Assembly (NCBI GenBank): GCA_945870465.1
Contig: CAMBSS010000137.1
Location: forward strand, 1-11,070
Source of the DNA: Bordetella parapertussis
GTDB taxonomy: Bacteria; Pseudomonadota; Gammaproteobacteria; Burkholderiales; SG8-41
Direction: 5' to 3'
DNA length: 11,070 nucleotides
Shown: positions 1,553 to 10,835 of the stretch, one piece after another
How positions within the stretch are numbered: position 1 is the first letter of the stretch
Layout: the number at the start of each line of letters is the position of its first letter
Notes under the pieces: model-generated
The model's input: only the letters and a program-made list of their open reading frames with translations
Told to the model about the DNA's origin: nothing
The model's database searches: none
Position numbers and translations under genes: made by a program

Positions 1553-2323
1553 GTGAATTTGACTGCGAACATAGAGAAAGTGCGCGGCTGGGTTGAATCC
1601 GCGAAGCGCGTGGTGGTGCTGACGGGTGCCGGCATCTCGACCGAATCGGGCATCCCGGATTTCCGCGGGCCCAATGGTGTGTGGACGCGCGATCCCAAGG
1701 CCGAGAAGCTTTCCGATATCCGCTATTACACGGCCGATCCGGAAATCCGCAGGCTCGCGTGGCAATCGCGCCTTGAACATCCGGCGTGGGCTGCGAAACC
1801 CAACGCAGGGCATCTTGCTTTGGTACAACTCGAGCGGCGCGGCAATCTGCGCGCACTGATCACGCAAAACATCGATGGCTTGCATCTCAAGGCCGGCAAT
1901 TCGCGCGATAAAGTGTTCGAAGTCCACGGCAACCTGCATAAGGCGATCTGCCTCTCGTGCGGCTGGAAGGGCCCGATGCTGGCAGTGCTCGACCGTGTGC
2001 GTGCCGGCGAGGAAGACCCGCCGTGCGCGACCTGCGGCGGTATCCTGAAAAGCGACACGATATCGTTCGGCCAGTCGCTGATCCCGGAAGTGATTGACGG
2101 CGCGATGGAAGCGGCGCACGACACCGACCTGCTGCTCGCCATCGGCAGCAGCCTGCAGGTGTTTCCGATCGCCAATGCAGCTCCCATCGCGCACGCGGCC
2201 GGCGCGCGCATTGTCATCATAAACGCCGAGCCGACGCAGTTCGACGACATCGCGGATGCGAAGCTGACGGGCCGGATCGGTGAAGACCTGCCGAGAATAT
2301 GCGGGAGATTCGATGCCGCATGA
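1553..2323 (+). CDS. Sir2-family NAD+-dependent protein deacylase (sirtuin)
   Basis: A complete 256-residue sirtuin. Family knowledge: sirtuins remove acyl groups from lysine using NAD+, giving nicotinamide and O-acyl-ADP-ribose, in the cytoplasm. Seen in the sequence: the NAD loop G-A-G-I-S-T-E-S-G-I-P-D-F-R-G (25-39) followed by PNGVWT, the T-Q-N-I-D-G-L-H motif (104-111), catalytic His125 in VHGN, four zinc cysteines as two CxxC pairs (133/136 and 158/161), and GSSLQVFP for NAD binding near the C-terminus. The PDFRGPNGVW stretch recalls SIRT6/7-like sirtuins. The Tyr/Arg acyl-pocket pair expected of desuccinylases such as CobB is not evident, so deacetylation is the simplest guess. The start is a GTG, the only in-frame candidate found close upstream; it has only a distant, weak ribosome site. 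It overlaps the stop of a tiny upstream frame as GTGA. The 3' end overlaps the hydrolase start by 11 bp, so it is probably the first gene of the operon. Confidence 0.93.
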   Translation: MNLTANIEKVRGWVESAKRVVVLTGAGISTESGIPDFRGPNGVWTRDPKAEKLSDIRYYTADPEIRRLAWQSRLEHPAWAAKPNAGHLALVQLERRGNLRALITQNIDGLHLKAGNSRDKVFEVHGNLHKAICLSCGWKGPMLAVLDRVRAGEEDPPCATCGGILKSDTISFGQSLIPEVIDGAMEAAHDTDLLLAIGSSLQVFPIANAAPIAHAAGARIVIINAEPTQFDDIADAKLTGRIGEDLPRICGRFDAA

Positions 2324-3503
2324 CGCCGGGACGTCCGCGCCGAAAAATAAAATCCGGGTTGCCGCGCTGTTCATCGGCCTCGCGGCCGGCTTTGCGTCCC
2401 ACGCGCAGGCCGCCGCGCCGGCACCGGAAGTCTTCGCGCAGGACATGCGCGAGGAGATCGTCCGCATCAGCGCCACCGTGAAGGACATGTACAACCGCCA
2501 GGAAACGCGGCCGGTCCCCATCACGATTTACCGTCCCGCGGGCGATGGTCCGTTTCCCTTGTTTGTGCTGAACCACGGGCGGCCCACGACGGAGAGGCGC
2601 GCCGCACAGGGGCGGTTTCGTCCTGAATCTGCGGCGCGTTATCTGGTGGCCAAGGGTTTTGTCGTGCTGGTGCCCATGCGCATCGGTTACTGGGAAACGC
2701 TGGGTAATTTCGATCCCGAAGAGAGCGGCGGCTGCAGCGATAAAAGAATCGAGCCGATGTCCATCGCGGCATCGGACCAGGTGCTGGCAACGGTCGAGTT
2801 CGCAAAGACCCTGCCTTATGTGGATGCGTCGCGCTGGCTCGTCGGTGGCGTCTCGGTCGGCGGGTTGACCAGCATAGCGACGGTGGGACGCAATCCGCCG
2901 GGATTGCTGGGCGGCATCAATTTTTCCGGCGGCACCGGCGGCGATCCGGTCAAAACGCCGGGACATCCCTGCGGCCCCCACCGGGTTGAGAGCTATTGGG
3001 GAGGTCTGGCAAAAAAATCCACCGTGCCCATGCTGTGGCTGTACTGGCAGAACGATAAGTACTGGGGTGCCGAGATTCCGAAGGAATGGCATAAAGCATG
3101 GGTGGATGGCGGCGGCAAAGCGGACTTCAAATCGTTTCCGCCGGCGGGCGAAGACGGGCATGCCGGTCTGACCATAGACATGAACGCATGGCTGCCGGTC
3201 GTCGATGAATTCCTGAACATACTTGGCTTTACTCAGCCGGCCATCGTGACCAAGCCGCCGGCGAGTAGCTACGCGGAACTTGCCGATGTGAGCAAGGTGC
3301 CGAGTGTGTCGGCAAAAACCAGCGGCTACGCGAGATTTCTGGAAGCCAAACAGCCGCGTGCCTTTGCGGTAGGCGACAGAGGCGGCTGGGGCTCCGCCAG
3401 CGGCGACTACGCGATGGGCAAGGCGCTCGGCAACTGCCAGCGCTACGGCCAAGTCTGTAGGTTGTATGCGGTGGACAACGAAGTGGTGTGGGTGGGTAAG
3501 TAA
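2313..3503 (+). CDS. Exported alpha/beta hydrolase with a Cys-containing C-terminal module
   Basis: A 396-residue protein starting at the ATG at 2313, with GGGAG 5 nt upstream. A GTG at 2280 in the same frame would add 11 residues ahead of the signal peptide and is less likely. The N-terminus has basic residues (KNKIR), a hydrophobic stretch (VAALFIGLAAGFA) and a plausible cleavage after SHAQA, so export to the periplasm is inferred. The hydrolase core resembles the dienelactone hydrolase/prolyl-oligopeptidase fold: an LNHGRP oxyanion region, nucleophile Ser181 in G-V-S-V-G-G, probable acid Asp248 in QNDKYW and His283 in EDGHAG. After about residue 306 a linker leads to a 60-residue tail containing GWGSAS, GKALGNC and VCRLYAVD, with Cys375 and Cys382 that could form a disulfide. 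The substrate is unknown; an ester or lactone is a family-level guess. It overlaps the sirtuin gene by 11 bp and precedes the dehydrogenase by 35 bp, so it is probably co-transcribed. Confidence 0.85.
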   Translation: MPHDAGTSAPKNKIRVAALFIGLAAGFASHAQAAAPAPEVFAQDMREEIVRISATVKDMYNRQETRPVPITIYRPAGDGPFPLFVLNHGRPTTERRAAQGRFRPESAARYLVAKGFVVLVPMRIGYWETLGNFDPEESGGCSDKRIEPMSIAASDQVLATVEFAKTLPYVDASRWLVGGVSVGGLTSIATVGRNPPGLLGGINFSGGTGGDPVKTPGHPCGPHRVESYWGGLAKKSTVPMLWLYWQNDKYWGAEIPKEWHKAWVDGGGKADFKSFPPAGEDGHAGLTIDMNAWLPVVDEFLNILGFTQPAIVTKPPASSYAELADVSKVPSVSAKTSGYARFLEAKQPRAFAVGDRGGWGSASGDYAMGKALGNCQRYGQVCRLYAVDNEVVWVGK

Positions 3504-4329: not shown

Positions 4330-5559
4330 ATGGTGCGACTCGTTGACCTTCCTGCATGGGAGCGCGAGCACATGCTCGAAAAAATCCCGGCGCTGCCGAA
4401 GTTCGGTCTCAACCCGTGGGTGGCTGGCGGCCCGCTCTCGAAACGGCGCGTTGCCATCGTGACGAGCGCGGGACTGCACACGCGCGGCGACCGTCCGTTT
4501 GGCCTCGGCGCCGCGCGCAACGACTACCGGGTGATTCCGGGCAGCATCGCCGCGGCGGACCTCGTGATGAGCCAGGTTTCGGTCAATTTCGACCGCACCG
4601 GCTTTCAGCAGGACCTGAACGTCGTGTTCCCCATCGACCGCCTGCGCGAACTCGCGGCGGAAGGCGTCATCGGGTCGGTGGCCGATTACCATTATTCGTT
4701 CATGGGTGCGGGCTCGCCGGTTACCCGCATGGAGGCCAGCGCGCGTGAAGTTGGCCGCCTGCTGAAGCAGGACAATGTCGATGCGGTGTTGCTGACACCG
4801 GTCTGACCGAACTGCACGTGCGCCGTGGGCGCACTGGCTTTGTATATCGAGGACGAAGGTGTGCCCACCGTCCTCATCAGTCTTGTGCGCGAACATACCG
4901 CGGCGATGCATCCGCCGCGCGCGTTGTGGGTGCCGTTCATGCTCGGCCGGCCGCTCGGCGTGCCCGGTGACGCGGCGTTTCAGCGCCGCGTCGTTGTGGC
5001 AGCGCTGAATTTATTCGGGCGCGACCGCGGTCCGGTGCTGGAAGATCACGCCGAGGAGGCGCCGCCTGTGGTGTCCGCCGAACCCGGAGAAGGCATGGTG
5101 TGCGGGGTCGATTTTTCGTCCGCGGACAAAGACGTTCCGTTGTCGCAGCTCGTGCTGGAGGAGGTCTCCCAGTTGAGCTCCTGGTATGACATCGCGTTGA
5201 AGCGGCGCGGGCGCACCGCGCTGGGCGTCGCCGGGGCTGCGCCGGAGGAATTGGCGCAGTTTATGGGCGCGTGGGCTGAAGGGAAACCGGTGCCGTCGTA
5301 CCGCGCTGGCATGCCGCTGGCCAATGCGATGCGGCTGGCATGCGAGGAACTCAAGGCTTTTTACGCAGAGGCCAACGCGGGCCAACCGGGCGAGCGTTCA
5401 GCGCACAGCGTGCAGGAGTGGTTCTGGCACCAGACGGCGGCAGGCCGCCTGATTCTGGCGTTGCATACGGCGCTGTTAAACAGCGGCGACAAAGAGCTGC
5501 GCAGTTTCGCGAACGAAAGCATGATTCCGCGCGTAGCGCGACATGGAGGTGCCGAGTGA
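4330..5559 (+). CDS. GrdB/PrdB-family reductase, probable selenoprotein (UGA at codon 159 read as Sec)
   Basis: Two ORFs (4330-4806 and 4825-5559) are in the same frame, separated only by TGA at 4804-4806. Read through, they give one 409-residue protein. It starts at ATG 4330 with AAAGG about 7 nt upstream; the second ORF has no ribosome site. Seen: an AIVTSAGLH strand (about residue 41 on), a V-F-P-I-D-R-L-R-E-L-A-A-E-G motif (about 98-111), Y-S-F-M-G-A-G, then D-A-V-L-L-T-P-V-U-P-N-C-T-C. Sec159 and Cys162 form a UxxC pair. Family knowledge: GrdB (glycine/betaine/sarcosine reductase) and PrdB (D-proline reductase) carry catalytic Sec at this point, just after a DAV(I/V)LT strand; PrdB shares the FPIDRL motif. 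A SECIS-like hairpin follows the UGA. Residues from about 236 to the end form an extension, rich in predicted helix and containing EWFWHQTAAG, not known to me from PrdB. No GrdA, GrdE or PrdA partner is nearby, so the reaction is unknown. Alternatives are a nonsense mutation or base error replacing Cys, but the hairpin and intact downstream frame argue for Sec. Confidence 0.85.
4804..4806 (+). other. In-frame UGA, proposed selenocysteine codon
   Basis: This TGA is codon 159 of the GrdB/PrdB-like gene. Coding continues in the same frame for 250 further residues, whose first part (PNCTCAVGALALYIEDEG) completes the domain begun upstream. The residue occupies the N-terminal position of a UxxC redox pair with Cys162. 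Confidence 0.85.
4818..4834 (+). promoter_or_regulatory. Candidate bacterial SECIS hairpin
   Basis: Arms GTGCGCC (4818-4824) and GGCGCAC (4828-4834) pair perfectly over 7 bp around the loop GTG (4825-4827). The loop begins 18 nt after the UGA, within the roughly 16-37 nt range used in models of bacterial SECIS elements, and has the required G at its first position followed by U. It lies inside the coding sequence, as all bacterial SECIS elements do, where SelB would bind it. GC-rich DNA makes chance hairpins common, so position and loop are the main support. Confidence 0.65.
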
Positions 5560-6539
5560 ACCGCAATGCAGCCTGGTCCATCATAGTACTCGCGGCGGTG
5601 ATGTCCGTTGCGCCTGCCACACATGGCGCGGATTGGCCGGCGAACGGAATCGTCGAGATTGTCGTGCCTTCGGGGCCGGCGAGCGGCCTCGACACCGCCG
5701 GCAGAACAATAAAAAACCTGTTTGATACCGCGAAGCTGATTTCAACCTCAAGCGTCGTCATTAACAAGGCCGGCGCGGGCGGCACCATCGCTTATCAGTA
5801 TTTGAACCAAAAGCCGGGCAACAGCCGCTATCTCGCCATCGCCTCGCCCAGCCTCATTACCAACAAGCTGATGGGGATAGGCGACGTCGATTTCCAGGAC
5901 ATGACGGCGGTCTGCCGCCTGTTTTCCGACAACATCGTGTTCATGGTGCGCGCGGACTCGGCGATACAGGATGGCAAGGGCCTGGTCGCGCGGCTGCGGA
6001 AGAACGCCTCATCCGCGTCGTTCGGTATCGCCACGGCGCTGGGCGGGGCCAACCACATTGCCGCTGCCGCGATGCTCAAGGGCGCCGGCATCGATGTCAA
6101 AGCGGCGCTCTATGTCGGCTACAAGTCTGGCTCTGACGCGTTGATCGCGCTTCTTAGTGGCGATGTCGACGTCGTCCCTGTTGCCGCGCCCGTCGCCCTG
6201 CCGCAACTGGCGGGCGGCAAGGTGCGGGTTATCGCCGTTTCGTCACCGGAACGTCTTGGCGGTGCCCTGGCGGTCGTGCCGACGTGGAAGGAGCAGGGCA
6301 TCGATTCCGTATATACATCCTGGCGCGTCATCGTCGCGCCGCGCGGCGTGAGCGACGAGGAGGTGCGTGCCGTGGCGGGTGCGTTCGCGAAGATGGCGGC
6401 GATGCCGCAATGGAAGGCGGAGCTCGAAAAAAACTACTGGATTGGAAATTACCTCGGGCCGGAAGCCACGAAGGCCTTTCTGGGCGAGCAATTGACCGAG
6501 CACCGCAATCTTCTCACGCAGTTGGGGCTGGCCAAATAG
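5556..6539 (+). CDS. Divergent Bug/TctC-like periplasmic receptor coupled to the selenoprotein
   Basis: A 327-residue protein starting at GTG 5556, whose GTGA overlaps the selenoprotein stop by 4 bp. GGAGG (5545-5549) lies 6 nt upstream, deciding this start over the longer frame from 5340. Signal peptide: about residues 1-25, ending in THGA before DWPANG. The fold is recognisable by G-A-G-G-T-I-A (equivalent to the family's SGASGNIG), FGIATALGGANHIAAA, YVGYKSGSDALIALLSGDVD and a C-terminal TSWRVIVAPRGV. It is unlike the other three receptors here: the usual PGG-x-x-D loop is replaced by P-S-G-P-A-S-G-L-D (38-46), the DNRSG motif by NKAGAG, and APDGYTL is absent. Inference: different ligand chemistry, probably tied to the upstream enzyme. 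It is the last gene of the plus-strand set and converges on the methyltransferase gene 51 bp away. Confidence 0.85.
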   Translation: MNRNAAWSIIVLAAVMSVAPATHGADWPANGIVEIVVPSGPASGLDTAGRTIKNLFDTAKLISTSSVVINKAGAGGTIAYQYLNQKPGNSRYLAIASPSLITNKLMGIGDVDFQDMTAVCRLFSDNIVFMVRADSAIQDGKGLVARLRKNASSASFGIATALGGANHIAAAAMLKGAGIDVKAALYVGYKSGSDALIALLSGDVDVVPVAAPVALPQLAGGKVRVIAVSSPERLGGALAVVPTWKEQGIDSVYTSWRVIVAPRGVSDEEVRAVAGAFAKMAAMPQWKAELEKNYWIGNYLGPEATKAFLGEQLTEHRNLLTQLGLAK

Positions 6540-8508: not shown

Positions 8509-9498
8509 TCAGTCGAGCCGGATGCCGGCTTGCTTGATCAGTCGCGCATACTTCTCATAGTCGGCGCGGATCGACGCGGCAAACTCCTGTGGTCCGAGCG
8601 CAGCCGGCTCTATGCCCTGGCTCGTCATAGCCTCGCGCATTTCCGGCGACTTCATGACGGCCTCGATCTGCGAGTGCAGCCGCTGGACAAGCGCCTTGGG
8701 CGCGCGCGCCGGCGCAAACACGCCCATCCATGAGTTGGCATCGTAACCGGGCACGCCCGCTTCATCGAAGGTGGGCAGCTCGGGCATGGTCGTCGAGCGT
8801 TTCAATGTCGTAATCGCCAGCGCCCTGACGCGGCCGGCGCGTATATGCGGCAATTGCGCCGGGATGCCCGAGAAATACGCCTGCACGTGTCCGCCGAGCA
8901 GATCGACGGTGGCCGGCGCGCCGCCCTTGTACGGCACGTGCAGCATGTCGATATGCGCCATCGCTTTGAGCATTTCTCCACACAGATGCGGCGTGCCGGC
9001 GACCCCCGAAGAAGAAAACTTCAACTGCCCCGGTTTGGCTTTTGCCAGCGCGATGAATTCGGCGACGGAGTTGGCGGGCACGCCTGCATGTATGACCATG
9101 ATGTAGGGCACGATGCCGAACAGCGTCACTGGTGCCAGGTCGCGCAGCGGGTCGTAAGACAATTTGGAAACGCTCGGGCTGATCGCAATGCCGCCGTTGG
9201 TGCCCAGCAGCAGCGTGTAGCCGTCGGGCACTGCCTTCGCCACCAGTTCGCCGCCGATGTGGCCGGAGGCGCCTGAGCGGTTGTCGACGACGAATTGCTG
9301 GCCCAGCGAGTCTGACAACCGCAGCGCCAGCACGCGTCCGAATATGTCGTTGCTGCTGGAGCCCGCGGGATAGGGGATGATGAAGCGCACCGGTTTCGAC
9401 GGGTACTGCTGCGCCGCCGCCGTGGTGGGCGCCATCATCGCGAGCGCAATAGCGATCAGCGCGCGCGGCACTTTTTGCATCAGGTTGGCAGAGATCAT
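8509..9498 (-). CDS. Bug/TctC-family periplasmic solute receptor
   Basis: A 329-residue receptor from ATG 9498, whose ATGA overlaps the stop of the hupE-like gene by 4 bp. A GGGGAG about 10 nt upstream and the overlap suggest translational coupling. The in-frame ATG at 9480 would give a shorter but usable signal peptide; a longer frame reaching 9999 only runs antisense-offset through the upstream gene and is not a real start. Signal peptide to about residue 29 (ending TTAAA). Motifs: Y-P-S-K-P-V-R (32-38), I-P-Y-P-A-G-S-S-S-N-D (41-51; the usual second glycine is replaced), V-V-D-N-R-S-G-A-S-G-H-I-G (70-82), then VPDGYTL and FSSSGVAGTPH. The ligand is unknown. The location between a HupE-like protein and an antiporter is unusual for a carboxylate receptor. 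Confidence 0.95.
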   Translation of the reverse strand: MISANLMQKVPRALIAIALAMMAPTTAAAQQYPSKPVRFIIPYPAGSSSNDIFGRVLALRLSDSLGQQFVVDNRSGASGHIGGELVAKAVPDGYTLLLGTNGGIAISPSVSKLSYDPLRDLAPVTLFGIVPYIMVIHAGVPANSVAEFIALAKAKPGQLKFSSSGVAGTPHLCGEMLKAMAHIDMLHVPYKGGAPATVDLLGGHVQAYFSGIPAQLPHIRAGRVRALAITTLKRSTTMPELPTFDEAGVPGYDANSWMGVFAPARAPKALVQRLHSQIEAVMKSPEMREAMTSQGIEPAALGPQEFAASIRADYEKYARLIKQAGIRLD

Positions 9499-10835
9499 TT
9501 CAGTTGGACTCCCCGTTTGCGCAATGCTGCATTGACTGCCCACATGCCGGCCGCCATCACCACCAGCGCGATCAACCAGCGCATCGCACTCGCCAGCGTG
9601 GCGGCATCGAATGCCGGCCACGGGAACTGGCCCAGGCGCTCGCCGCGTTCCAGCATCCAGTGCCAGCCGGTGTGACCGATCAAAACGGACAAGATGATGA
9701 CGCTGATGCGCTCGGGCACAACGTAATGAAACAGCAGCCGGATCAGCGGGATCAGCACGGCGAGCACCAGCAACTGGCCGAACTCGACGCCGATGTTGAA
9801 CGATAGCAGCGAAGTCAGGAGGTGGTTGCCGGCGAACTGCAGTTGCTCGCGCAGCGCGAACGAGAACGCAAAGCCGTGCACAAGGCCGAACGCGAAAGTG
9901 AGCATCCAGCGGCGCTGCACGTTGGTGCCGATAATGTTTTCGATCGCCATGTAGACGATAGACAGCGCGATCAGCATTTCGATCAGCGGTGCAAACCACA
10001 GCGCGGTGGGCCCGAGGTCGTAGGCTGAGGCGATGAGCGTAATTGAATGCGCGACCGTGAACGAGGTGACGATCAGCACCAGCGCGCCGAAGCGCCGGAA
10101 TGGTATGACGAGGCAGAGCAGGAACAGCAGGTGGTCGGCGCCTTCAAGGATGTGCCAGAAACCGGACTCGACGAAGCGCAGCGCGGCCTGGTGCCAGCGC
10201 GGATCGAGCGCCACCGTGCCGGGATCGCCGTGGAACTCGAACGCGCGCTCGGCGCCGCCCGACGGCAGGAAACGCAGTGCGACCGTCACGCGCAGGCCGA
10301 GCCGCTCGAGACGCGGGCGTATCGAGAACGCGGCATTTGCCGACTGGATCGGGTACTCGAACAGCACGTCCAGCATGCCCTGGTTCCAGAACAGCTCCAT
10401 CTTCTCGGGCAGCCGCGGGCCGGCGAGATGAGCGCGCGCTTCGTCGAACGACGCGAAAGACTTGTCCGACGGCAGCGACACGCGGGCATCGACCACGACC
10501 GGATAGGCAAGTTGCCTGCCGGCCTCGTAGAGATCGATGTTGTCGGCGATCCACAATGTGGCCGCGGTACGCAGCGCCGCATCGGCGCGCGCGAGATCGA
10601 GGTAACCGGGGCCGCGTTTCGGAATATCGACTTCGCGCATGGCGGTGAGCGGCACGCGCACCAGCAGTTGAAGCTTTTGACCGTCCGGTTTGACGAACGC
10701 CTGCACTTTGACGTCGCTGGGAATTTCGTGCGCTGCCGCAATGCACCAAAACGCCGCAAGCATAGCGGCCGTCAGCACGGCAAAAGCGCGCCTGACACCG
10801 TTGAAACTTATCCTCTGCGCGAATTTATTTTCCAT
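9495..10835 (-). CDS. HupE/UreJ-family membrane protein with periplasmic N-terminal domain
   Basis: A 446-residue protein with three parts: a signal peptide (about 1-35, ending IAAA), a periplasmic beta-rich region of about 185 residues, and a C-terminal membrane domain of about 6-7 helices. Membrane motifs are typical of HupE/UreJ: H-I-L-E-G-A-D-H (228-235) leading into LLFLLCL, F-T-V-A-H-S-I-T-L (259-267), E-M-L-I-A-L-S-I-V-Y (286-295), F-G-L-V-H-G-F (316-322) and FNIGVEFGQL. Family knowledge: small HupE/UreJ proteins are linked to nickel or cobalt entry, and the invariant His and Asp residues suggest metal binding. Long versions like this one have unproven roles. If cleaved after Ala35 the mature protein would begin with His (H-E-I-P-S), a possible metal ligand (inference). 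The ATG at 10835 has no clear ribosome site. First gene of the minus-strand set. Confidence 0.88.
   Translation of the reverse strand: MENKFAQRISFNGVRRAFAVLTAAMLAAFWCIAAAHEIPSDVKVQAFVKPDGQKLQLLVRVPLTAMREVDIPKRGPGYLDLARADAALRTAATLWIADNIDLYEAGRQLAYPVVVDARVSLPSDKSFASFDEARAHLAGPRLPEKMELFWNQGMLDVLFEYPIQSANAAFSIRPRLERLGLRVTVALRFLPSGGAERAFEFHGDPGTVALDPRWHQAALRFVESGFWHILEGADHLLFLLCLVIPFRRFGALVLIVTSFTVAHSITLIASAYDLGPTALWFAPLIEMLIALSIVYMAIENIIGTNVQRRWMLTFAFGLVHGFAFSFALREQLQFAGNHLLTSLLSFNIGVEFGQLLVLAVLIPLIRLLFHYVVPERISVIILSVLIGHTGWHWMLERGERLGQFPWPAFDAATLASAMRWLIALVVMAAGMWAVNAALRKRGVQLK

Follow-up and report, generated by a model that had tools for sequence, protein, structure and literature searches.

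A predicted UxxC selenoprotein of the GrdB/PrdB superfamily with an additional C-terminal helical domain, from a betaproteobacterial contig

The 11,070-nucleotide stretch of Bordetella parapertussis contig CAMBSS010000137.1 analysed here (the window) contains, at positions 4330-5559 of the forward strand, what is most likely a selenoprotein gene rather than a pseudogene, predicted from sequence to encode 409 residues followed by a terminal TGA. We propose, with a probability of roughly 0.6, that its product represents a widespread branch of stand-alone selenoenzymes, in which the selenocysteine (Sec) domain of Stickland reductases, lacking a pyruvoyl partner and combined with an unrecognised helical domain, would perform a different and as yet unnamed reduction in bacteria equipped for respiration. 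The selenoprotein assignment follows from five lines of evidence: a conserved TGA codon, Cys-containing relatives, a covarying hairpin, the presence of Sec genes in genomes carrying relatives (carriers), and the association of such relatives with selA.

Two ORFs, at 4330-4806 (158 residues) and 4825-5559 (244 residues, called from a GTG), share one reading frame; from the ATG at 4330 onward, the TGA at 4804-4806 (forward strand) is the sole in-frame stop encountered before the terminal TGA at 5557-5559. Reading through this codon yields a 409-residue product that can be aligned along its length with full-length relatives and that places U159 within T-P-V-U-P-N-C-T-C, a UxxC motif. A scan of genome contigs with a single peptide pattern provided 359 confirmed related loci, the best 80 of which (the top of the ranking) were compared at this position: all 82 matched segments have TGA at the Sec column, two of these segments being second copies, the one from L072 with an identity of just 34%. 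Among more distant full-length database relatives Cys occupies this column in all 18 that cover it, P0064 being left out for want of this stretch, and also in P0036, a further relative outside the 18. The same pattern was apparent in an order-wide sample of 300 genomes, taken from the order of the carrier genome G002, where each of the 21 long-form matches at E <= 1e-80 contained one TGA. With homology on both sides of an in-frame UGA, and with Sec or Cys at the corresponding position in relatives, the UGA at 4804 is almost certainly read as selenocysteine.

Database records reflect the difficulty that this codon poses. One separate cluster (P0002), 99% identical to the downstream half, comprises 58 member sequences having the same start after the TGA, which speaks against a sequencing error there. 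Among the 120 homologues listed of 1167 in a protein search, a manual count distinguished 42 long sequences from 78 representing the short downstream half; the latter have no Pfam domain, and several are named 'hypothetical protein'. Relatives are often stored in this half-length form because gene callers stop at the UGA. The initial annotation had described a single gene interrupted by the TGA at 4804-4806, had called for an alignment of homologues to establish whether column 159 is Sec or Cys, and had anticipated that automatic annotation would split the gene; the shared frame, the uniform occurrence of TGA or Cys and the 78 half-length homologues agree with each of these points.

A candidate bacterial SECIS hairpin follows the TGA at 4818-4834 (forward strand), with a seven-pair stem (4818-4824 with 4828-4834) and a three-base loop, the position and first G of which we take to fit bacterial SECIS elements. 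In an alignment of the 48 bases from the TGA onward, gap-free in 81 genes, 87.3% of cells in the stem columns (15-21 with 25-31) are paired. Five of the seven pairs are altered on both sides, giving 32 doubly changed cells versus 9.9 expected by shuffling, and slid stem registers gave at most 11; the stem is interrupted at pair 17-29 in 36 of the 81 sequences and at pair 21-25 in 24. Compared with synonymous codons, the mean z was -1.21 for the 81 genes versus -0.26 for 324 control stretches from the same genes. A SECIS-like downstream stem-loop is thus evident in the 81-gene set, but the window hairpin taken alone did not differ significantly from random synonymous codons (z -1.43, p 0.07). 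Together with the conserved TGA and the Cys forms, this covariation sustains the earlier claim of a selenoprotein.

Genomes of relatives, as distinct from that of the window, were then inventoried for the Sec machinery using curated cut-offs. In 40 carriers that we chose from the genomes of the 80 loci, matches over cut-off were obtained for selA in 37, selB in 36, tRNA-Sec in 35 and selD in all 40; the corresponding numbers in 14 control genomes were one, two, five and two. The tRNA-Sec model is the least specific of these, since five controls exceeded its cut-off, and at least one of the 35 carrier matches (G016) lies exactly at threshold. In the 300-genome sample the long form occurs in 18 genomes and selA over cut-off in 87, distributed as 17 of the 18 carriers versus 70 of the 282 others (Fisher p 3e-9, in a test that ignores relatedness). 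Only G001 among the 18 carriers has no selA over cut-off; this genome of the closest relative, a fragmented assembly, shows selD and tRNA-Sec but no selB over cut-off either. We also observed that selD matches in carriers, among them G001-G005 and G008, often contain one in-frame TGA, so that SelD itself looks like a predicted selenoprotein in such organisms.

These results bear directly on whether the TGA could instead be a real stop, marking a broken gene or two separate genes. Gene callers do split the ORF in that manner; however, the occurrence of TGA at this codon in every one of the 82 segments, which are homologous to either side of it, Cys in distant relatives, the covarying hairpin and the selA association render this extremely improbable. 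We rejected the broken-gene interpretation on the conserved TGA, the hairpin covariation and the link to selA.

The long form is broadly distributed. Loci encoding it bear labels including Betaproteobacteria, Alphaproteobacteria, Chloroflexi, Desulfobacterales and others, and TGA is present at the Sec column in marine relatives of SAR116 and SAR202 (L032, L039 and L040). A quick tree, combining the 18 Cys rows that were retrieved with 80 Sec rows (79 of the 80 loci plus the window), required four changes of state, a figure that is no census given the midpoint root and 24 weak branches. The window clusters with 13 other rows, all 14 being Sec, at a local support of 97; 12 of the 13 carry the label beta proteobacterium, Betaproteobacteria, Burkholderiales or, in a single case, Bordetella, the remaining one being L004, in keeping with the betaproteobacterial placement originally suggested. 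A second, shorter GRDB relative occurs in the same order (L099-L110), in most cases with a UPxCHQ or CPxCHQ motif. In the 300-genome sample, short relatives with TGA were found in eight genomes, all eight having selA, and seven genomes had stop-free matches only, one of these having selA; in one of the seven (G113) the match lies only outside the Sec region.

Profile searches define the affiliation of the product. Pfam GRDB (PF07355) matches residues 34-156 (4429-4797, forward strand), ending just before Sec, with 56.5 bits against a cut-off of 22, and NCBIfam TIGR01918 scores 70.4 bits against 65.45; both curated cut-offs being exceeded, the GrdB/PrdB-like character proposed in the initial annotation is retained at the level of the superfamily. 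The PrdB profile TIGR04483, the best NCBIfam match by E-value, extends over residues 35-227 and across U159, and reaches 110.3 bits versus its cut-off of 300; three Cys relatives likewise score below 300 (98, 130 and 102 bits). The GrdB models TIGR01917, NF040794 and NF040795 gave 62.6, 68.5 and 65.8 bits against cut-offs of 602.2, 800 and 775. These profiles place the window protein within the GrdB/PrdB superfamily but outside PrdB itself. An identity as D-proline reductase or glycine reductase in the strict sense was rejected on the profile cut-offs, with which the partners missing from relatives agree.

GrdA, GrdE and PrdA are partner proteins in the Stickland enzymes, and PF09338 is presumed to cover GrdE. 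These partner roles are repeated in part in the available portion of PMC13188914. We searched with profiles the draft genomes of 27 betaproteobacterial carriers: 12 lie behind the loci, three of these also falling within the order-wide sample, which contributed the other 15. GrdA and PF09338 were each found in one of the 27, in both cases G331, and PrdA over cut-off in none of the 27, with one weak match in G331; the setting free of Stickland partners suggested at the outset is accordingly seen in relatives. On contig C148 of G331, a short GRDB relative and a PF09338 protein accompany a GrdA gene that contains an in-frame TGA, in what is likely a glycine-reductase-type cluster. A haem-copper oxidase is present in 26 of the 27 carriers, the exception being G001; this shows equipment for respiration, not lifestyle.

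It follows that a true D-proline reductase PrdB (or GrdB), acting in Stickland reduction with a partner encoded elsewhere in the genome, is very unlikely. Such an assignment would accord with PrdB being the best profile by E-value across Sec, with 36% identity over 204 residues to an annotated PrdB, and with the carrier G331 having both GrdA and a PF09338 protein, but it is opposed by a score of 110 bits where 300 is required and the annotated PrdB attains 310, by the extra C-terminal domain, and by the rarity of GrdA, PF09338 and PrdA among the carriers. In the genome of that annotated protein, from Peptoclostridium acidaminophilum, prdA is not listed within 5 kb of prdB either, in a gene table that is incomplete there.

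The extra domain is seen in the predicted structure. An AlphaFold2 model from 56 sequences, with Cys standing in for Sec, had a pLDDT of 91.4 and a pTM of 0.91 for the whole protein, and comprises an alpha/beta part to about residue 240, a low-confidence stretch at about 251-260 and an all-helical part from 271. Residue 159 is located between a strand (152-156) and a helix (160-175). The C-terminal all-helical domain, residues 271-405 (5140-5544, forward strand), lies beyond the end of the PrdB match at residue 227; modelled alone it is also confident (91.2). No Pfam family exceeded its cut-off for this domain, and comparison with solved structures returned nothing that clearly matched.

From these features we lean towards a UxxC selenol/thiol reductase operating without a pyruvoyl partner, the gene encoding a single-chain selenoenzyme. 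In the model, Sec159 follows a strand and sits where a helix begins. Its selenolate would be the reactive nucleophile, attacking or reducing a small substrate bound within the alpha/beta domain; the UxxC cysteine, Cys162, could then resolve Sec159 as a selenenylsulfide, with subsequent recycling by a cellular thiol system. Because a pyruvoyl-type partner is almost always missing from the genomes of relatives, the chemistry would not be Stickland cleavage through a pyruvoyl adduct. The additional helical domain may provide substrate-binding or assembly contacts that a partner supplies in proline and glycine reductases.

The gene neighbourhood was inspected for further indications of function. 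A short-chain dehydrogenase gene precedes the selenoprotein gene by 32 bp, and the terminal stop codon of the latter overlaps a possible GTG start of the next gene, encoding a Bug/TctC receptor; across loci, no neighbour is fixed. Several betaproteobacterial loci (L002, L004, L009, L086, L093, L094, L096 and L097) do have Bug genes in the vicinity of the long form, and adjacent Bug receptors had originally been thought to point to a role. We do not uphold this: the scoring ceiling of the search, about 62 TctC/Bug matches, was attained in all but one of 27 related genomes, with raw candidates numbering 81 to 995, and since related genomes are full of such genes their adjacency is weak evidence, near chance expectation. 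The window itself contains three Bug/TctC receptor genes in 11 kb, at 393-1412 and 5556-6539 (forward strand) and 8509-9516 (reverse strand), compared with dozens to hundreds in related genomes. Elsewhere in the window, a 407-residue ORF at 2280-3503 (forward strand) overlaps the end of a Sir2-type gene (1553-2323) and matches nothing in Pfam or NCBIfam at E <= 0.001.

One functional hint, a thin one, comes from TauD-type dioxygenases. P0036 is a Cys-form relative fused to a TauD-type domain, and in L002 and L083 the gene immediately upstream, on the same strand, is TauD-like. Both observations would suit a catabolic route in which the product of substrate oxidation by TauD serves the selenoenzyme for reduction or cleavage. 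We regard such a partnership as doubtful: TauD-like matches occur in four of the 80 loci, adjacent in one, and the scanned genes of the window include no TauD match. A selenol-based protein of detoxification or repair rather than catabolism, reducing for example peroxides or disulfides, appears similarly unlikely. The UxxC motif, the absence of fixed catabolic neighbours across loci and the respiratory oxidase in 26 of 27 carriers are compatible with it, but similarity is to substrate-specific reductases and not to known detoxification families. A reductase without a pyruvoyl partner remains our preferred interpretation, and its substrate is amenable to testing because natural Cys forms are available for expression.

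Selenoproteins of this general kind have been recorded before. The available sections of a Sargasso Sea survey (2005) report 42 PrdB selenoproteins with UXXC, the third most abundant known family (PMC1088965), and those of a Global Ocean Sampling survey (2008) count among the most abundant families 'Proline reductase PrdB, pfam07355, UxxC', with 235 Sec and 110 Cys sequences (PMC2398784); on these portions, GRDB-type selenoproteins of the open ocean are already known as a kind. The uncharacterised role ascribed to the gene by the initial annotation therefore stands insofar as its function is unassigned, and not as regards novelty of kind. The sections available of other surveys describe one selenoprotein family, formate dehydrogenase (FdhA), in Betaproteobacteria (2006; PMC1794560), and proline reductase in 110 organisms, with the strong tie between Sec and anaerobiosis no longer found (2016; PMC5029168); those of PMC9312934 and PMC12013277 add nothing on the long form. 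Our literature search, mostly of listings, retrieved no publication dealing with the long architecture, the absence of the partner or the function of this branch. The family is named after an enzyme with which anaerobes ferment amino acids, a designation unsupported for the long form, and the occurrence of that form in 18 of 300 sampled genomes of one order contrasts with the one betaproteobacterial family counted in the accessible part of the 2006 survey. A probable selenium-dependent activity thereby escapes routine annotation, gene callers stopping at the UGA.

Comparison with known systems delimits the branch. The marine-metagenome PrdB selenoproteins, compared here by family and motif as listed in the sections available (PMC1088965, PMC2398784), share with the window protein the Pfam family and the UxxC motif. 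The short GRDB relatives (L099-L110) belong to the same superfamily and have the Sec/Cys column in common with it, Sec and Cys forms being mixed among them, but they are only 26-38% identical and their matches end before most of its C-terminal domain. GrdB-type proteins (PF07355, TIGR01918) are related to the extent that both cut-offs are exceeded, with the Pfam match running up to the residue before Sec; this match covers profile positions 221-345, the first half of GrdB being absent. The database-annotated PrdB of P. acidaminophilum (L111) is the protein noted above as 36% identical over 204 residues, and has Sec at the same column and Cys three residues on. It differs in having 237 residues rather than 409 and in passing TIGR04483 (310.2 against 300, versus 110.3), and the window protein has, beyond PrdB, its C-terminal helical domain.
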